Origin: Saccharomonospora azurea NA-128
GTDB lineage: Bacteria > Actinomycetota > Actinomycetes > Mycobacteriales > Pseudonocardiaceae
Direction of reading: 5' to 3'
Assembly (NCBI RefSeq): GCF_000231055.2
Contig: NZ_CM001466.1
Span: 976,481 to 1,031,843 of the forward strand
DNA: 55,363 bases
In this document: piece by piece, positions 1,384 through 45,456 of the stretch
Layout of the letters: every line of letters starts with the position of its first letter
How positions within the stretch are numbered: the first letter of the stretch is position 1
Notes under the pieces: model-generated
Database searches by the model: none
Seen by the model: the letters and a program-made list of their open reading frames with translations, nothing else
What the model was told of the DNA's origin: nothing
Program-made: the position numbers and the translations under genes

Positions 1384-1430
1384 CGCCCCCGTCGCGGAGG
1401 GCACGGTTCGCGACGAGGGCGTACACGAAC

Positions 1431-1493
1431 TGCGAACACGTGTGCGTGGAGTGCGGACACGCGTGCGCAGACTGCGGACACGGCGCTACGGCG
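1431..1493 (+). repeat. 21-bp tandem repeat array, locus 1 (3 units)
   Basis: Three direct units start at 1431, 1452 and 1473, exactly 21 bp apart. The first two carry TGCGRACACG followed by TGTGCG or CGTGCG; the third is a divergent terminal unit (GCGGACACGG). The array fills the space between the convergent TetR and xylA genes and reaches the TGA stop of xylA (complement at 1499-1501), which is directly followed by CAC. The seven-codon periodicity makes false ORFs with CGHACxx-like repeats; these are not genes. Confidence 0.9.
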
Positions 1494-1498
1494 GCGTG

Positions 1499-2668
1499 TC
1501 AGGCGGCGCCCACCAGGTGGTCGAACGCCAGTTGGGACAGCTGCGCGTAGGCGTAGCCGCGGCGGCCCGCCGCCTCGGCGTCGAAGTCCTCGAACGCCGT
1601 GCGGTCGGCCAGCAGGTCGGCGGGCGACTCGCCCTCGCCCAGCGTGGGCTTCGAGAGCTCGGGCACACGCGACGCGTCGAGGGCCTCGATCACCCTCGGA
1701 TCGGCGCGGAACGCCTTCGCCCGCTCACGCAGAAGCAGGTAGGACCGCATGCAGGCCGCGGCGCTCGCCCACACGCCCTCCATGTCCTCGGTGCGCGGCG
1801 GCTTGTAGTCGAAGTGCCGGGGACCGTCGTAGCCGCCGTGTTCGAGCAGGTCGACCAGGAAGAACGCCGAGAGCACGTCGCCGTGCCCGAACACGAGGTC
1901 CTGGTCGTAGCGCGGTCCGTGCTGACCGTTGAGGTCGATGTGGAACAACTTGCCCTGCCACAACGCCTGACCGATGCCGTGCACGAAGTTGAGCCCGGCC
2001 ATCTGTTCGTGCCCGACCTCGGGGTTCACGCCCACGAGCTCGTGGTGCTCCAGGGTGGAGATGAACGCGAGTGCGTGGCCGATCGTGGGCAGCAGGATGT
2101 CGCCTCGTGGTTCGTTCGGCTTCGGCTCCAGCGCGAGCCGCAGGTCGTAGCCCTGGTCGAGCACGTACTGCGCCAGCGTGTCGATGCCTTCGCGGTAGCG
2201 GTCCATCGCGGCGCGCACGTCCTTCGCCGCGTCCGTCTCGCTGCCCTCCCGGCCGCCCCACAGCACGTACGTCGTCGCTCCGAGCTCGGCGGCGAGGTCC
2301 ATGTTGCGCATGACCTTGCGCAGCGCAAACCGGCGGATGTCGCGGTCGTTGTTGGTGAGTCCACCGTCCTTGAACACCGGGTGGGTGAACAGGTTGGTGG
2401 TGGCCATCGGCACGACCAGGCCGGTCTCGTCGAGGGCGGTGCGGAACCGCTGGATGCGCTTGTCGCGCTCCCCTTCGTCGCTGCCGAAGGGGATGAGGTC
2501 GTCGTCGTGGAACGTCACGCCCCACGCCCCCAGCTCGGCGAGCCGGTGCACGGCCTCGACGGCGTCGAGCTCGGGACGGGTGGCCTCGCCGAACGGGTCG
2601 TTGGCCCGCCATCCCACCGTCCACAGGCCGAAGCTGAACTTGTCCTCCGCCACGGGTGTCCCGACCAC
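1499..2668 (-). CDS. xylA: Xylose isomerase
   Basis: Converts D-xylose to D-xylulose (and glucose to fructose) in the cytosol. The 389-residue length matches actinobacterial XylA (about 388). The N-terminus [20 protein letters not shown] and the loop [13 protein letters not shown] are diagnostic. Metal ligands are present in [27 protein letters not shown] and [22 protein letters not shown]. The GTG start at 2668 was chosen because GGGAGG (complement at 2674-2679) sits five bases upstream and the length then fits the family. It is divergent from a ROK regulator, with two inverted repeats between them. No xylulokinase gene is adjacent; the phosphoketolase at 39-41 kb could use the resulting xylulose 5-phosphate. 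Confidence 0.95.
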
Positions 2669-8311: not shown

Positions 8312-9625
8312 TCAGGACGCGATCTGCTTGGCGGCGTCGACGAACCGTTCCCAGCCCTCGGCCGGTGACGTGCCCTGCTCCACCGCCTGCAACGCGGGGC
8401 TCAGCGCGTTCTCCTGGATCTTGCCGTCACCCGGCCCCTTGTACTGGGCCTCGCCGATCGCCTTCGCCTGCTCGGCGAACAGTTCCCCCATGGGCGGGCC
8501 GTCGAAGTAGTCGTTGGTGGCCGACAGCAGATCCGGCGATTCCAGCGCCTCGACCTGGCTCGGGAACACCCCGGCCGCCTTGAAGGCCTTGATCTGCTGC
8601 TCCGGAGCGGTCAACCATGCCGCCAGTGCCGCGGCCTCCTCGGGATGCTCGCTTTGCGTCGGAACGGCCAGGTACGACCCGCCCCAGTTGCGCGGGCCTC
8701 CGGGGAAGGCGTCGGTGACGGCCCAGGCGCCCGCGAGGTCCTCGCCGGCCTGTTCCTCGATCACCCCGAGCATCCACGAGGGACACGTCTTCGTCGCGAA
8801 CGCCGACTGTGTGAAGCCGCTGTTCCACTCGTTGGAGAACGCCACCAGTCCCGCCGACTGTCCGCGTGCCACCGCGTCGGTCACCCGGTCCCAGTTGCGC
8901 TTGATCTCGGGATTCGACTCGACCGTCAACCGGTCCTGGCGGTCGAAGTAACCGACGTCGAGCTGGTTCTGCATCGCGTTGAAGATCTGCGCCGCCGAGT
9001 CGAACCACGCCACGCCGTCGACGTTCGCGACGAACTCGTCACCGGCGGCGAAGTAGCTGTCCCACGACTCGAACAACTCGGCCACCTCGTCCGGTTCGGA
9101 CGGAAGACCCGCCTGCTCGAAGAGGTCCTTGCGATAGCACATCGCGAGCGGCCCGATGTCCGTGCCGTACCCGATGAGCCTGCCGTCCTTGTCGAGGGCC
9201 GCCTCGTACTTCCAGTCGAGCCAGCGGTCGGGGCCCGCCTCCTTCGGCCCGATCTCGGTGAGGTCGTGGAAGCGGCTCGATTTGTCGAGCACCTCGGGAA
9301 GGTGCGCCTCCTCGACCGCCACCACGTCGTCGAGGCCCGACCCCGCCCCGAGCTTGGTGAACAGCGACTGGTGGTACGGACCGCCCTGACCGGTCTCGTG
9401 GACGACGATGTCGATGTCCGGGTGCAGGCGCTCGTACTCGGCGTACAGCTCCTCGTATCCGAACTCGTTGAACGTCGAGATGCTGAGCTGGAGCTTGCCG
9501 TCGGCGGCGGCGTCGTCCCCGCCGCAGGCCACGGTCACCAAGCCGACCGCGGCGACGGCGGAGGCGGTGGCGATGGCACGTCTGGCGGGCCCGGCTTGTC
9601 CGGTGCGTCGGAGATGGTGTCGCAC
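8312..9625 (-). CDS. cebE: CUT1 sugar-binding lipoprotein, CebE-like
   Basis: A 437-residue extracytoplasmic solute-binding protein. The N-terminus has an arginine-rich n-region, a hydrophobic stretch and a lipobox (VTVAC) at about residue 35, so it is probably a membrane-anchored lipoprotein. The body is family-1 binding protein (FNEFGYEEL..; WAVTDAFPGGPRNWGGSYLAVP). The GTG at 9625 was chosen for the AAGGGG ribosome site five bases upstream; an in-frame ATG at 9793 would place the CebR box inside the gene and lacks a signal-peptide context. First gene of the operon cebE-cebF-cebG-bglC-cebR. Confidence 0.88.
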   Translation of the reverse strand: MRHHLRRTGQAGPARRAIATASAVAAVGLVTVACGGDDAAADGKLQLSISTFNEFGYEELYAEYERLHPDIDIVVHETGQGGPYHQSLFTKLGAGSGLDDVVAVEEAHLPEVLDKSSRFHDLTEIGPKEAGPDRWLDWKYEAALDKDGRLIGYGTDIGPLAMCYRKDLFEQAGLPSEPDEVAELFESWDSYFAAGDEFVANVDGVAWFDSAAQIFNAMQNQLDVGYFDRQDRLTVESNPEIKRNWDRVTDAVARGQSAGLVAFSNEWNSGFTQSAFATKTCPSWMLGVIEEQAGEDLAGAWAVTDAFPGGPRNWGGSYLAVPTQSEHPEEAAALAAWLTAPEQQIKAFKAAGVFPSQVEALESPDLLSATNDYFDGPPMGELFAEQAKAIGEAQYKGPGDGKIQENALSPALQAVEQGTSPAEGWERFVDAAKQIAS

Positions 9626-9659: not shown

Positions 9660-9673
9660 TGGGAGCGCTCCCA
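9660..9673. promoter_or_regulatory. CebR box 1
   Basis: Perfect 14-bp palindrome TGGGAGCGCTCCCA, identical to the CebR operator known from Streptomyces, 35-48 bp upstream of the cebE-like GTG. The adjacent cebR-like gene supplies the matching repressor. Confidence 0.88.
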
Positions 9674-9778: not shown

Positions 9779-9792
9779 CGAGAGCGCTCCCA
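9779..9792. promoter_or_regulatory. CebR box 2 (imperfect)
   Basis: CGAGAGCGCTCCCA matches the CebR palindrome at 12 of 14 positions. Its centre is 119 bp from box 1, close to the 3' end of the upstream hydrolase gene. It could be an auxiliary operator for looping, or chance. Confidence 0.5.
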
Positions 9793-20430: not shown

Positions 20431-21477
20431 ATGACGTCCGCTCGACCGATTCGCACGGCCGTATTGGGATTCGGGTTGTCCGGCAGGGTGTTCCACGCGC
20501 CCTTCCTCGCCTGCGACCCGGCGTACTCCCTCGACGTCGTGGTCACCCGCGACGAGCATCGCGCGGCCCAGGCCCGCAGCGCCCACCCCGGCGTGACGGT
20601 GCTGCCCGGCGCCGACGCCGTGTTCGCCCAGGCGGACGAACTGGATCTCGTGGTCGTCGGCACGCCTCCGGCGACGCACGTCGAGCTCGCGACACGGGCT
20701 CTCGACGCCGGTCTGCACGTCGTGGTGGACAAGCCGTTCACCACCACCCGAGCGCAGGGCGAGGCCCTCGTCGAGCACGCCCAGCGGGCGGGGCGGTTGC
20801 TCACGGTGTTCCAGAACCGGCGGTGGGACGGCGACTACCGCACACTGCGGCACCTGGTGACCGGCGGGGCCCTGGGCCGCGTGCACACGTTCGAGTCACG
20901 GTTCGAGTCGTGGAAGCCGCACGGCCCTCGCGCCTGGAAGGCGCACACGCCGATCTCGCAGGGTGGGGGCATCGTCTTCGACCTCGGCAGCCACCTGATC
21001 GACCAGGCGCTCCAGCTGTTCGGCCCGGTGGAGTCGCTGTGGGCCGACATCGCCGTCCGCACACCGCACTCCTCCGGGGTGGCCGACGACGACGCACTCG
21101 TGGTGTTGCGCCACCGCGACGGAGTCCGGTCGCAGATCGTCCTCTCGTCTCTCGCGGCGCTTCCGGGACCGCGCTTCCACGTCCTCGGTTCGTCGGCCGC
21201 GTACACGAAGTGGGGCTTCGATCCGCAGGAGAACGCCTTGCGTGATGGCGCACTGCCCACCGACGACGGCTTCGGGCGCGAACCGCGGGACCGCTGGGGC
21301 GTGCTGGGCGTGGGCGACGACGTGCGGCGGGTCGAGACCGAGCCCGGCGACTACGGCGAGTTCTACCGGCTGCTGGCGCGCGCGGTGCGCGGTGAGGGAG
21401 AGCTGCCCGTCGACCCGCACGACGCCGTCGCGGTGCTCGACGTCATCGAGCGCATCCACCGCACCGCCCGCCTCTGA
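20431..21477 (+). CDS. Gfo/Idh/MocA family oxidoreductase
   Basis: A 348-residue NAD(P)-dependent sugar or polyol dehydrogenase. Rossmann motif AVLGFGLSGRVFH at the N-terminus, active-site motif VVDKPFTTT (a DKP variant of EKP), and substrate-side DLGSHLIDQALQLFG with the catalytic histidine region. ATG start with AAAGGAG seven bases upstream. Position after the transporter suggests it acts on the imported sugar. Its TGA is directly followed by repeat array 4. Confidence 0.87.
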   Translation: MTSARPIRTAVLGFGLSGRVFHAPFLACDPAYSLDVVVTRDEHRAAQARSAHPGVTVLPGADAVFAQADELDLVVVGTPPATHVELATRALDAGLHVVVDKPFTTTRAQGEALVEHAQRAGRLLTVFQNRRWDGDYRTLRHLVTGGALGRVHTFESRFESWKPHGPRAWKAHTPISQGGGIVFDLGSHLIDQALQLFGPVESLWADIAVRTPHSSGVADDDALVVLRHRDGVRSQIVLSSLAALPGPRFHVLGSSAAYTKWGFDPQENALRDGALPTDDGFGREPRDRWGVLGVGDDVRRVETEPGDYGEFYRLLARAVRGEGELPVDPHDAVAVLDVIERIHRTARL

Positions 21478-21524
21478 CATCGTGTCCGCGCCCCACGCAC
21501 GCGTGTTCGCACTTCCCGCACGGC
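21478..21524 (-). repeat. 21-bp repeat array, locus 4 (2 clear units plus 1 degenerate)
   Basis: Read on the minus strand: a degenerate unit (GCCATGCCGTGCGGGAAG), one full unit TGCGAACACGCGTGCG.. and a terminal unit CGCGGACACGATG that ends at the TGA of the plus-strand oxidoreductase (21475-21477). The terminal unit and the stop codon together read CGCGGACACGATGTCAGAGG, almost the same as locus 2 (CGCGGACACGGTGTCAGAGG) although the flanking genes are unrelated. Confidence 0.85.
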
Positions 21525-21574: not shown

Positions 21575-21590
21575 GTTAGGCAAACCTAAC
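21575..21590. promoter_or_regulatory. Iron box (DtxR/IdeR-type operator)
   Basis: GTTAGG-CAAA-CCTAAC, a perfect inverted repeat matching the core of the DtxR/IdeR consensus TTAGGTTAGGCTAACCTAA. It ends three bases before the most likely start codon of the iron-siderophore binding protein, implying iron-dependent repression. Confidence 0.85.
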
Positions 21591-21593
21591 ACT

Positions 21594-22622
21594 ATGATCG
21601 CTGCGCGCCGTCGGCGTCGCCTCTCCGGCGCCCTCCTCGCCGTCGCCCTGCTCGTGCTGACCGCCTGCTCCGGCACGACCACCACGGACGAGTCCGGTCC
21701 GCCGGCCGTGCAGCCCGAGGCGGGAGCACTGCCCGTCACGATCGACCACCGGTACGGCTCCACGACGATCACCGACCCGCCGAGCAAGGTCGTCAGCGTC
21801 GGCTACACCGACCACGACGCCCTCCTCGCCCTCGGCGTGACCCCGACGGCGACCACCCGCTGGTTCGGCGACTATCCGGGCGCGGTCGGCCCCTGGGCGC
21901 GGCAGGCACTCGGTGACGACCCCGTTCCCACGGTGCTCGACGACACCAACGGCATCCAGTTCGAGAAGATCGCCGCACTGGAACCGGACCTGATCGTGGG
22001 CCTGTACTCCGACCTCACGCGCGAGGAGTACGACACGCTCTCCGAGATCGCGCCCACGATCGCGCCCCCACCGGACCAACCCGACTTCGGCACCCCGTGG
22101 CGCGACGTGACCACGACCGTCGGCCGCGCCGTGGGCAAGCCCGCCGAGGCGCGGCGCCTCGTCGAGGGCGTCGACCAGCGGTTGGCCGAGATTCGCGCCG
22201 ACCACCCCGAGTTCGCGAACGCCACGGCCGTCGTGGCGACACTGTCCGAGGGCTACTTCCTCTTCGGCGGCGACGATCCCCGTTCACAGCTGCTGGCCGA
22301 CGTCGGCCTCCGGCTGCTGCCCGAGCTCGACACGCTCGTGGGCGACCGGTTCGGCGCGAGCATCGGCACCGAGAACGCCGACGTGCTCGACACCGACGTC
22401 GTCGTGTGGCTCACCGACGACGGTGGCGCGGAGCTGCGTCGCGACCCGCTCTACAGCACCCTGCGGACCGCGAAGGAGAAGCGGGAGGTGTTCGTGAACA
22501 ACAACGACGACTTCGGCAACGCCTTCTCCCAGGTGTCCGTGTTGAGTGTTCCGTACGTGCTCGACCGGCTCGTCCCGCAGGTGGAGGCGGCCGTGGACGG
22601 CGATCCGTCCACCACCGGCTGA
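21594..22622 (+). CDS. Iron-siderophore ABC transporter binding lipoprotein
   Basis: A 342-residue FecB/FepB-type periplasmic binding protein. The ATG at 21594 gives a typical lipoprotein signal (MIAARRRRRLSGALL..LTAC). The mature part has VVSVGYTDHDALLALGVTP, ALEPDLIVG and a C-terminal lobe ending VSVLSVPYVLDRLVP, as in class III siderophore binders. No ribosome site fits between the iron box and the ATG, so the message is probably leaderless; an upstream ATG at 21525 would put the iron box inside the gene. No permease or ATPase gene is adjacent, so it must work with a transporter encoded elsewhere. Confidence 0.85.
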   Translation: MIAARRRRRLSGALLAVALLVLTACSGTTTTDESGPPAVQPEAGALPVTIDHRYGSTTITDPPSKVVSVGYTDHDALLALGVTPTATTRWFGDYPGAVGPWARQALGDDPVPTVLDDTNGIQFEKIAALEPDLIVGLYSDLTREEYDTLSEIAPTIAPPPDQPDFGTPWRDVTTTVGRAVGKPAEARRLVEGVDQRLAEIRADHPEFANATAVVATLSEGYFLFGGDDPRSQLLADVGLRLLPELDTLVGDRFGASIGTENADVLDTDVVVWLTDDGGAELRRDPLYSTLRTAKEKREVFVNNNDDFGNAFSQVSVLSVPYVLDRLVPQVEAAVDGDPSTTG

Positions 22623-32305: not shown

Positions 32306-32328
32306 CGACCGCACAGCCGTACGACAAG

Positions 32329-32391
32329 TGCGGACACGTGTACCGGAAGTGCGGACACGCGTGCGGGAGGCGCGGACACGGTGTCAGAGGA
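32329..32391 (+). repeat. 21-bp tandem repeat array, locus 2 (3 units)
   Basis: Units start at 32329, 32350 and 32371, exactly 21 bp apart: TGCGGACACGTGTACC.., TGCGGACACGCGTGCG.. and the terminal CGCGGACACGGTGTCAGAGG. The terminal unit includes the stop codon of the minus-strand AEC gene (TCA at 32384-32386) and forms GACAC-G-GTGTC. The array occupies nearly all of the 78-bp gap between two convergent genes. Confidence 0.9.
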
Positions 32392-33313
32392 GCAGGGCCA
32401 CGGCGGCGAAGATCACGGGGAGGCTCAGCAGGGTCGTCACCAGCACCGCGTCGCGGGCCAGCGTGACGCCGTGGCCGAAGCGCACGGCGTAGCCGAACAC
32501 GTTCTGCGCGGCGGGTAGCGCGGCGCACACCACCACGGCCAGCAGCTCGACGCCCTCCAGACCCAGGACGAGCCCGAGTCCGAGCGCCATCAGCGGGTGC
32601 ACGACGGTCTTCACCGTCACGATCGCCACGAGCGGGAGCCTGCTCTCCCGGTCGCGACCGGGCCTGCTCGCCCCGTGCAGGGAGATCCCGAACGCCAGCA
32701 GCATGGCGGGCACCGCCAGAGCGCCCAGCAGCTCCACGGGCGCGAGCACCGGCTCCGGCAGCGTCACCCCGGTCGCGGTGACGACGAGTCCCGACACCGA
32801 GGCGATCGCGAGCGGGTTGCGCAGAGGTGCCGTGATCGTGCGGCTGAGTGTCGGTCGGCTGCCGTCCCGCCGGGCCGACACGACGTCGAGAACCGTGGTG
32901 AACACCGGCGTGAGGATCGCGAGCTGGAACAGCAGCACGGGAGCGACCACCGTGGCGTCGCCGAACACGTACGCGGCCACCGGCAGGCCGAGATTGCCCG
33001 CGTTGACGTAACCACTGCCCATCGCCGCGATCGCCGTCTCGCCGGGCGGCCTGCGCCGGAGGATGCCCACCGGCACGTACAACGCGCACGCGAGCGTGCT
33101 AGTGACGGCGGTGACCACGAGGTTGGCCGAGAAGACGTCGGTGACGTCCGCGTGCGCGAGCGTCGTGAACAGCAACGCCGGGCTCGCCACGAAGAAGGCG
33201 GTGCGCGACAGCACCTCGGTGGCCGACGACCCCAGCACCCCCGCCCGCCCGACCACGTAGCCCACGACGACCACGCAGGCGAGCACGAGGAAACCTTCGA
33301 TCACGCCGCTCAT
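32384..33313 (-). CDS. AEC family transporter
   Basis: A 309-residue integral membrane protein with about ten hydrophobic helices in two halves, matching the auxin-efflux-carrier family: MSGVIEGFLVLACVVVVGYVVGR, GSGYVNAGNLGLPVAAYVFG in the first half and VPAMLLAFGISL and AALPAAQNVFGYA in the second. Bacterial AEC proteins move dicarboxylates such as malate or malonate; the substrate here is unknown. ATG at 33313 is the usual family start. Its stop lies inside the terminal repeat unit of array 2. Confidence 0.85.
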   Translation of the reverse strand: MSGVIEGFLVLACVVVVGYVVGRAGVLGSSATEVLSRTAFFVASPALLFTTLAHADVTDVFSANLVVTAVTSTLACALYVPVGILRRRPPGETAIAAMGSGYVNAGNLGLPVAAYVFGDATVVAPVLLFQLAILTPVFTTVLDVVSARRDGSRPTLSRTITAPLRNPLAIASVSGLVVTATGVTLPEPVLAPVELLGALAVPAMLLAFGISLHGASRPGRDRESRLPLVAIVTVKTVVHPLMALGLGLVLGLEGVELLAVVVCAALPAAQNVFGYAVRFGHGVTLARDAVLVTTLLSLPVIFAAVALLL

Positions 33314-43877: not shown

Positions 43878-44588
43878 TCAGCCGCCGAACATCGTGCGCC
43901 ACTGCTCCAGCGAGCGGGGCCGGAAGACGACGTTGTCGCGACGGACGTTCGACAGCGACGCCGACGGCTCCGCCGAGTACCAGTGCCCCGGATAGACGAC
44001 GGGATCACCGGGCAGGTTCGCCAACCACTGCAGGCTCCGGTACATCGCGTCGACGTCCCCGCCGGGCAGGTCCGTGCGGCCGCAGCCGTCCAGGAACAGC
44101 GTGTCGCCCGCGATCAGCGCGCCGTCGAGCAGGAAGCACTGGCTGCCCGGCGTGTGCCCCGGCGTGTGCAGCAGGCGCAGCGACACGGCGCCGATGTCGA
44201 GACGGTCGTCGTGGTCGTGGGCGACGAGGTCGGTCTTCGACACACCGGTGGTGCGGCGGACCCACTCCAGTTCCGCGGCGGCGACGTGCACCGGCACCTG
44301 CACGTGGGCCAGCAGCTCGGCCACACCCGGCAGCGAGAAGCCGAGGAGATCACCGCCGACGTGGTCGGGGTGATGGTGCGTGGCGAGCACCCCGACGAGG
44401 CGCATGTCGTCGTCCGACAGCACGTTGACCAGGTCGTCGACCGCGTACGCGGGGTCGACGATCACCGCCTCGCGGGTGTCGCGGTCGCCGATCAGGTAGG
44501 TGAAGTTGCGCATCTGGGTGGCGACGGGGTCACCGACGGCGAAGTCCCGCCCGGACAGCAGTTGCCGGAAATACAAGCGCTCGGACAT
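43878..44588 (-). CDS. MBL-fold hydrolase (glyoxalase II-like)
   Basis: A 236-residue metallo-beta-lactamase-fold protein with the zinc motif THHHPDHVGG, GHTPGSQCFLL, the bridging GDTLFLDGCGR and a late YPGHWY histidine. This resembles hydroxyacylglutathione hydrolases and persulfide dioxygenases. In glutathione-free actinomycetes the thiol could be mycothiol. The ATG at 44588 is used; a longer frame reading upstream through the repeat array is spurious. It diverges from the DprE2-like gene, with repeat array 3 between. Confidence 0.87.
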   Translation of the reverse strand: MSERLYFRQLLSGRDFAVGDPVATQMRNFTYLIGDRDTREAVIVDPAYAVDDLVNVLSDDDMRLVGVLATHHHPDHVGGDLLGFSLPGVAELLAHVQVPVHVAAAELEWVRRTTGVSKTDLVAHDHDDRLDIGAVSLRLLHTPGHTPGSQCFLLDGALIAGDTLFLDGCGRTDLPGGDVDAMYRSLQWLANLPGDPVVYPGHWYSAEPSASLSNVRRDNVVFRPRSLEQWRTMFGG

Positions 44589-44620
44589 GGGCGCATGGTA
44601 GCCGTCCGACGTCGGCGAAC

Positions 44621-44704
44621 CGCGGACACGCGTACGCAGGCCGCGGACACGCGTGCGGGACGTGCGGACACGCGTGCGTGGGGCGCGGACACGGTGCGGG
44701 AGGA
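44621..44704 (+). repeat. 21-bp tandem repeat array, locus 3 (4 units)
   Basis: Four units start at 44621, 44642, 44663 and 44684, each exactly 21 bp apart, all with GCGGACACG; units 1-3 continue CGTRCG and unit 4 is the divergent terminal form GCGGACACGGTGCGGGAGG. Unlike the other loci this array lies between divergent genes, and the terminal unit supplies the GGGAGG ribosome site of the gene at 44713. Confidence 0.92.
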
Positions 44705-44712
44705 TGGCGCGC

Positions 44713-45456
44713 ATGAACGGGACCGTGCTGGTGCTGGGAGGACGCAGCGAAATCGGGTCGGCCGTGGCGACGCGGCTGGCGGAGCGGGGCGCGCGGTCGT
44801 TCGTGCTCGCCGCGCGCCGCAGCGGGGACCTCGACGCCGAGGAGCGGGCTCTGCGAGCCGCGGGTGCCGAGACCGTGGCGCGCGTGGAGTTCGACGCCGA
44901 CGATCTCGACTCGCACCAGGGGATGCTGGAGGGCGTCGTCGCCGAGCACGGCCCGCTCGACGTGGTGGTCACCGCGTTCGGGATTCTCGGCGATCAGGCG
45001 CGCGCCGAGCGCGACGCCGCCCACGCCGTGGCCATCGTCCACACCGACTACACCGCGCACGTCAGCGTGCTCACCCACGCGGCGAACCTGCTCCGAGACC
45101 AGGGACACGGCACGCTCGTCGTCTTCTCGTCGGTGGCGGGTGTGCGGGTGCGCCGCGCCAACTACGTCTACGGCTCCGCGAAGGCCGGTCTGGACGGGTT
45201 CGCGTCAGGGCTCGCCGACGCCCTGCACGGCAGTGGCGTGCGACTGCTGCTGGTGCGGCCCGGGTTCGTCGTCGGCCGGATGACCCGCGGGATGACGCCC
45301 GCCCCGTTCTCCAGCACGCCGGACTCGGTCGCCGACGCCACCGTGGCGGCGCTGCGCGCAGGAAAGCACACCGTGTGGGTGCCCGCCGTGCTGCGGCCCG
45401 TCTTCGCCCTGATGCGGCTGCTTCCCCGACCGATCTGGCGGCGCCTGCCCCGCTGA
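44713..45456 (+). CDS. DprE2-like short-chain dehydrogenase
   Basis: A 247-residue SDR. It follows mycobacterial DprE2 closely by eye: VLVLGGRSEIGSAVA, FDADDLDSHQGMLE, VVTAFGILGDQA, HTDYTAHVSVLTHAA, SSVAGVRVRRANYVYGSAKAGLDGF (catalytic Ser, Tyr, Lys) and VRPGFVVGRMT. DprE2 makes decaprenylphosphoryl-arabinose for cell-wall arabinan together with DprE1, but no dprE1 is nearby, so this may be a paralogue. ATG at 44713 chosen because GGGAGG is nine bases upstream; the ATG at 44704 abuts it. Convergent with a nitroreductase gene. Confidence 0.8.
   Translation: MNGTVLVLGGRSEIGSAVATRLAERGARSFVLAARRSGDLDAEERALRAAGAETVARVEFDADDLDSHQGMLEGVVAEHGPLDVVVTAFGILGDQARAERDAAHAVAIVHTDYTAHVSVLTHAANLLRDQGHGTLVVFSSVAGVRVRRANYVYGSAKAGLDGFASGLADALHGSGVRLLLVRPGFVVGRMTRGMTPAPFSSTPDSVADATVAALRAGKHTVWVPAVLRPVFALMRLLPRPIWRRLPR

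Follow-up and report, generated by a model that had tools for sequence, protein, structure and literature searches.

The window, a 55,363-nt stretch of DNA from Saccharomonospora azurea NA-128 that forms part of a single 4.76-Mb contig (genome G000), contains four arrays of a short box repeated at steps of exactly 21 bp throughout. An earlier note had reported these arrays from the letters alone, and we recovered all four, with three, two, three and four boxes, respectively (Table 1). The pattern GCGRACACG-N12-GCGRACACG occurs as eight pairs in the window and as none in 100 windows shuffled in 60-base blocks. Each array is referred to here as an arm, running from an inner half-unit to an outer box, and all four are single. 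The outer box of arm 1 lies 16 bp before the stop codon (1499-1501) of a convergent TIM-barrel gene (1499-2653, minus strand), that of arm 2 is 3 bp after the stop TGA (21475-21477) of a Gfo/Idh/MocA gene (20488-21477, plus strand), and that of arm 3, which is placed between convergent genes, is 3 bp before the stop codon (32384-32386) of a transporter gene (32384-33313, minus strand). Arm 4 is not at a 3' end: its outer box is 10 bp before the called start (44704) of a short-chain dehydrogenase gene, and the arm falls inside a minus-strand gene as called (43878-44714), which we judged over-extended and take to start near 44588, leaving arm 4 between divergent genes.

Table 1 Box arrays (arms) in the window, in window coordinates.
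Arm	Span	Strand	Box starts, from the inner box outwards	Boxes	Inner half-unit
1 (3 boxes)	1420..1482	+	1432, 1453, 1474	1432-1440, 1453-1461, 1474-1482	1420-1431
2 (2 boxes)	21481..21522	-	21510, 21489	21481-21489, 21502-21510	21511-21522
3 (3 boxes)	32318..32380	+	32330, 32351, 32372	32330-32338, 32351-32359, 32372-32380	32318-32329
4 (4 boxes)	44610..44693	+	44622, 44643, 44664, 44685	44622-44630, 44643-44651, 44664-44672, 44685-44693	present

The genes flanking the arrays are unrelated, as had been supposed, their eight proteins belonging to eight families (a TetR match fell below its cut-off), and no Rfam family was matched by the window at gathering score. The palindrome CACGCGTG, attributed to the internal units, is present in five of the eight such units of the window, those at 1432, 32330 and 44622 being different, and is a feature of one dialect only, absent from the others. 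Elsewhere in the window, TTAGGCAAACCTAA (21576-21589), a short distance ahead of the gene for a periplasmic binding protein (21594-22622), resembles an iron-regulator (IdeR/DtxR) box. Two LacI-type operator-like palindromes, GGGAGCGCTCCC (9661-9672) and GAGAGCGCTCCC (9780-9791), are found upstream of the gene at 8312-9538; in G002 and G011 an array lies directly beside the corresponding site.

Repeat unit, dialects and distribution

A box of 8-9 bp every 21 bp is conserved across dialects, and the remaining 12-13 bp vary. The S. azurea box is GCGGACACG, with a spacer composed of CGTRCG plus a purine-rich stretch. The dialects differ between congeners, the spacer reading GGCTACG in most of the listed units of G006 and GACTACG or GACGACA in G010, with GTAG present inside units of both, and the dialects of G157 and G176 are built on GCCAACAC boxes. 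At box position 4, A was counted in 30/95 innermost, 1/78 middle and 0/95 outermost boxes, figures biased by the fetching pattern, which demands G there in the second box. In arms at four orthologous places (compared with G008, G002 or G011), differences amounted to 13/261 in the boxes and 88/252 in the spacers, the first spacer half contributing 27/126 and the second 61/126; units were typed by register in recognisable arms only, and the pairwise counts are not independent. By eye, each species appears to draw its spacers from a pool of its own, so the units seem to turn over. Eight successive identical units occur near 418.5 kb of the own contig.

The family extends well beyond the window. 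The strict pattern GCGRACACGNGTNCN7GCGGACACG gave 124 + 110 = 234 pairs in the own genome, 119 of them with the outermost-type ending, and its reversed control gave 0. In 770 kb of the own genome, the steps of 102 arms were of 21 bp in 178 cases, 42 bp in eight and 41 bp in one. Strict pairs numbered 85-234 in five of the 12 genomes of the genus and 0 or 1 in the other seven, and the pattern was matched in 12/390 genomes of the family Pseudonocardiaceae. A broad box (GCSRACAC at 21 bp) had at least one match in 311/390 genomes, mostly a few each; the reversed control CACARSCG-N13-CACARSCG gave 0-2 matches per genome except in G189 (8) and G186 (27 + 10 = 37), so that low counts are uninformative and only high ones meaningful. 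The G186 matches perhaps represent a second 21-bp repeat family. High broad counts were obtained in other Saccharomonospora (G006, 359 pairs; G009, 166; G010, 196), which makes the patchiness of the strict pattern partly a difference of dialect, and in other genera (G176, 292; G194, 231; G389, 285). G003, G004, G005 and G007 (4/12 of the genus) had 0-3 broad pairs, in genomes 82-91% complete, three of them 82-83%. The arrays are shared with other Saccharomonospora and, as lineage dialects, with some other Pseudonocardiaceae, and the box and the period suggest that the dialects of other genera would form one family with those of Saccharomonospora. A 5-box scan of named genomes returned, among the matches listed, Saccharomonospora, Prauserella and Amycolatopsis together with single matches in many other phyla; those listed from cyanobacteria, Chloroflexi, Bacteroidetes and other phyla are possibly coding repeats with a 7-residue period. 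The earlier note knew of no named family like this one, and our search of open-licence PMC text listed no title or abstract that describes it.

Arm anatomy, gene ends and helical phase

In the stretches of the own genome that were examined, arms are either single or arranged as head-to-head pairs with their outer boxes facing outward. In the 770 kb, no two arms within 200 bp of each other were found in tail-to-tail order, and 53/99 arms have no partner at all within that distance. The commonest pair centre measures 10 bp (about GTCGCACGNN), the other centres consisting of two inner half-units plus a middle. In the GCCAACAC dialects an outward pair within 64 bp was present in only 3/9 genomes, and arms pointing towards each other were seen by eye at four of their loci (L170, L175, L196 and L199). 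One strict locus of G127 (L122) has two arms tail-to-tail, the reverse of the usual order, directly after a Fic/Doc-toxin-like gene (by eye). Upon folding, single arms were only slightly better than shuffles (mean z -1.18, 13/51 below -2), as opposed to inverted pairs, all of which folded strongly (22/22 below z -2, mean -6.9). In the locus set behind the gap, folding, middle and duplication tests, three clusters (near 163, 233 and 717 kb) are mirrored and some segment edges are mixed, with gap lengths unaffected.

Gene context was obtained from a home-made codon-usage caller, not from annotation, and was clear for 99 of the 102 arms in the 770 kb. The array-bearing regions comprised 33 convergent, 34 co-directional and seven divergent ones, three arms lying inside called genes; against a background of all intergenic regions measuring 70 bp or more across 359 kb of contiguous sequence (21 convergent, 102 co-directional, 51 divergent), convergent regions are favoured (33/74 vs 21/174) and divergent ones avoided (7/74 vs 51/174). 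The claim that every array ends on the same side holds with respect to the unit. As for genes, 71/99 arms have their outer box turned towards a stop codon. The box lies within 27 bp of that stop in 62/71 cases, against 8/63 for inner ends facing a stop, and a similar polarity is seen in the 53 unpaired arms (outer end 36/38, inner end 8/31). In convergent regions the outer end is the nearer one in 41/44 cases. Co-directional regions showed no bias, the outer end facing the stop in 27/46 (p=0.30), and some loci of other genera have the opposite polarity (by eye). The outer box is exactly 3 bp from the stop in 12 arms, often with TGACAC or TGACAT before CGTGTCCGC, suggesting that the end of the element may itself supply the stop.

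The gaps between opposed arms follow a ladder of helical turns. With an 8-bp box, the 29 own pairs had gaps of 10 (nine pairs), 30 (two), 40, 41 (two), 51 (four), 52, 62 (three), 72 (two), 93 (two) and 126 bp, plus off-ladder gaps of 5 and 69 bp; with a 9-bp box, 24 pairs gave the same ladder with 31, 61 and 83 bp and one gap of 176 bp. In other genomes, where any gap of 4-64 bp was accepted, gaps of 10, 19, 29-31, 39-40, 50-52, 61 and 63 bp were found along with one of 54 bp in G006, the exception among 112 pairs of which 111 were on the ladder; these pairs, at least 112, were taken among the matches listed as the innermost match per locus, and some are copies of each other. Of the 141 pooled pairs, 59 were at 10 bp and the other 82 gave R=0.85 at 10.5 bp. 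Because decayed 21-bp units can keep phase by descent, a stricter test started from 92 distinct gap sequences and excluded the 43 no longer than 12 bp, 25 that contained a leftover box (at most one mismatch) and near-duplicates. The 24 remaining gaps, of 19, 29, 30 (four), 31 (three), 40 (three), 41, 50, 51 (four), 52 (two), 62 (two), 71 and 82 bp and from several genera, were all on a ladder of about 10.4 bp (R=0.93, a fit equalled by none of 200,000 random sets), although some of them may still contain units with two or more mismatches. The gaps with a leftover box include the off-ladder 42, 47, 114 and 54 bp. Eleven own middles (6, 16-17, 27-28 and 38 bp), picked by eye, are mutually unrelated, with a mean local score of 11.9 vs 11.6 for shuffled sequences. 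The argument of the earlier note, that a 21-bp period puts every unit on the same helix face, is thereby strengthened: boxes repeat at 21 bp and opposed arms stand whole helical turns apart, even where the middles are unrelated. Phasing of the duplex across unrelated middles implies a protein complex on DNA spanning both arms, and suggests that some protein must grip both arms at once to move or use the arrays, apparently with duplex loops between arms as short as 19-31 bp.

History and candidate explanations

Arrays turn over between species. Where synteny with G008, G002 and G011 allowed comparison, some arms were present at orthologous places in two to four species and others were missing: arm 1 of the window has counterparts in G008 and G002, arm 3 in G008 and arm 4 in G008, G002 and G011, arm 2 (21489) was not seen at the orthologous place in G008 or G002, and an array at 1082 kb is shared with G008 and is not in G011 or G002. 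The regions of G006 and G001 fetched for comparison were not syntenic, 57 kb of G006 being without an array. By eye, genomes of different genera have arms in matching gene neighbourhoods (L157 of G001 and L150/L152 of G340/G341; L159 of G001 and L162 of G389). At L150 and L152, a variable gene matching DUF559 lies between two arms, its neighbours corresponding to those of L157 (by eye). At L160 (G001:C1:650500-665000), each of three successive genes, which encode about 1,090 aa and look alike by eye, is followed by an array with an identical pair sequence, and a fourth array follows the gene preceding the three, as if gene and array had been duplicated together.

Near-identical copies occur between unrelated flanks. 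A 155-bp element of G010 is 100% identical at two such loci, and 317 bp of G002 are 96.8% identical at two, a third copy matching at 89% over 156 bp; outside the array sequence, no similarity was found around the G010 and G002 copies at E 1e-3. A match of 98% between G001 and G002 extends across the flanking DNA as well (3,468 bp) and so provides no evidence of movement. Identical segments also occur inside arrays differing in unit number. A weak sign of 5-bp duplications came from 4/114 pairs vs 0.5 expected (offset 2), including one beside a G010 copy. With about 96 tests made, this excess is not safe; two of the four have the sequence TGTCG, which is the common flank, and one overlaps a dialect unit. 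No transposase was found among ten called proteins between opposed arms 0.6-3.5 kb apart (own, G001, G340 and G341 loci), and no DNA-binding or transposase gene was seen, by eye, to be common to the isolated strict matches in G127, G184 and G010.

Copying and patchiness point to mobility, and our preferred reading, tentative and a little short of an even chance, is that each array is an arm, in many cases the only one to survive, of a small non-autonomous mobile element whose ends are multi-box. A complete element would have two outward-facing arms, each with at least two boxes (GCGGACACG here) at 21 bp, around a centre. The boxes are candidate binding sites for a protein that, from one helix face, would contact both arms, and since it must contact both, only elements with arms a whole number of turns apart would work. 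The likeliest such protein would be a DDE transposase of the Tn7/IS21/Mu type acting in trans, the two ends meeting in a synaptic complex, and elements might build up at sites that tolerate insertion, immediately downstream of stop codons. We infer the transposase partner, transposition over gene conversion, the remnant nature of single arms and this reason for the 3' preference. The inverted-pair anatomy, the phase ladder with its unrelated middles, the copies, the weak sign of 5-bp duplications, the presence or absence of arms at orthologous places and the preference for convergent over divergent regions argue for the mobile reading. Against it are the lack of a transposase match among the ten proteins between opposed arms, the marginal count of duplications, the unpaired arms, the conserved boxes with changing spacers at orthologous places, unexpected of dead insertions, the arms in matching neighbourhoods of different genera, the few off-ladder gaps, and the capacity of gene conversion between existing arrays to produce the copies; its generality is weakened by the rarity of outward pairs in the GCCAACAC dialects, where arms also point towards each other at some loci.

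Stop-codon polarity and box conservation keep alive a possible, though rather unlikely, explanation in which the arrays serve the host: a cooperative DNA-binding protein would coat the boxes from one side and act at gene ends as a directional roadblock, insulator or topology-setting site, with two arms between convergent genes forming one phased complex. Its action would be directional because the outer box is met first by RNA polymerase leaving the gene, and the persistence of phase across unrelated middles also agrees with it. Such a role sits poorly with the near absence of arrays from some genomes of the genus, the difference of dialects between congeners, the strict count of only 119 outermost-type pairs in the own genome, the lack of orientation bias in co-directional regions and the opposite polarity at some loci elsewhere. 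The nucleoid, insulator or terminator element proposed in the earlier note is upheld in part, as to a protein complex on DNA, which the phasing implies; each of the three roles would be conjecture. The weak folding of single arms speaks against a plain RNA terminator, and a general host structure is disfavoured by the near lack of the broad pattern in 4/12 genomes of the genus and by the recurrence of elements between unrelated flanks in two relatives.

Recombination-driven repeats, in which older arrays were homogenised by slippage and ectopic gene conversion with no transposase and the ladder is a relic of bound proteins, would account for the run of identical units near 418.5 kb, the species-wide dialects and the identical segments in arrays of different unit number. 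Alone, this process leaves unexplained the ladder with unrelated middles and the arrays present where relatives have none, and we consider it improbable. An RNA-level 3' element, whether a bidirectional intrinsic terminator or an mRNA-stabilising hairpin, would fit the location after stop codons and the folding of inverted pairs, but is more doubtful still, given the weakly folding single arms, helical quantisation as a property of duplex DNA, the absence of an Rfam match at gathering score and the separate GC-rich hairpins beside some arrays (by eye), as near 1979522 of the own contig. An intrinsic terminator with a stable hairpin in each copy was rejected on the folding of single arms. Loading sites for an FtsK-like DNA pump, by analogy with the 8-bp TRS clusters bound by TraB in Streptomyces conjugation (TRS/clt sites), would likewise be clusters of a directional 8-bp box, and such clusters are known on a Streptomyces chromosome (PMC5133688, PMC4170104); the parts of these TRS descriptions considered here mention neither inverted pairs, nor 3' location, nor phased gaps, and this explanation seems to us scarcely credible.

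Relation to known systems

Short repeats at gene ends are common, and few reveal their mechanism. Here, nearly all surviving arm spacings are whole turns, in effect evolution's own helical-twist experiment. This indicates a specific nucleoprotein complex, which can now be looked for, and the lineage dialects form a natural series in which co-variation could reveal the partner protein. A transposase partner would make these a new class of multi-box miniature elements; a host protein would imply an unknown chromosome-organising or transcription-blocking system in actinomycetes.

The earlier statement that no IS ends are present is doubtful, as tandem sites of about 20 bp in inverted ends are the build of Tn7-like and IS21 elements. 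According to the portions of the literature covered, the ends of Tn7-like elements, Tn5053 and IS21 carry arrays of transposase sites of about 20 bp, tandem within an end and inverted between ends, and those of IS21 are 23 bp apart, with 5-bp direct repeats at insertions (PMC8649781, PMC10122671). The arrays share this arrangement of tandem sites inverted between ends, outward pairs being rare in the GCCAACAC dialects. The likeness is one of architecture, and it is limited by the absence of any transposase gene found between arms here, by paired arms mostly within about 130 bp and by a very variable box number.

REP/REPIN sequences are described, in the excerpts considered, as short, extragenic, often after coding regions, in inverted doublets and of lineage-specific types, and are thought to be non-autonomous mobile DNA with RAYT transposases (PMC3116915, PMC3733652), one REP class (CGTC) being without a dedicated transposase (PMC3733652). 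The arrays resemble them in these respects and differ, as far as those excerpts go, in the tandem 21-bp boxes of each arm, the phased gaps and the weak folding of single arms. As to the REP stem-loop of 20-40 bp with a GTAG or CGTC tag, single arms fold weakly, and GTAG does appear within units of the G006 and G010 dialects. A RAYT origin was rejected: Y1 transposase (PF01797) was matched in 4/22 genomes (G000, G005, G006 and G008) and does not follow the arrays, with no match in array-bearing G001, G002, G011, G340, G341 and G389 and no array in the 4.4 kb surrounding the own-genome match (L168).

The closest parallel to the ladder comes from the internal eliminated sequences of Paramecium, whose lengths, in the part of the report considered, rise in steps of roughly a helical turn (10.2 bp), the second step being almost unoccupied, a pattern interpreted there as the result of looping within a transposase complex (PMC3464196). 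Those elements are eukaryotic and excised in development, and their ladder is that of the whole element, whereas ours is that of the gap between arms, and its 20-bp step may be absent for no other reason than the room taken up by two inner half-units. With these differences in mind, the arrays may be small bacterial elements whose two multi-box arms are kept in register on the helix by a protein that is dedicated to them and co-evolves with them, neither elements nor partner belonging to a known family, and by analogy a bacterial counterpart of the Paramecium length ladder, a joint proposal that we advance tentatively and would not place at an even chance.
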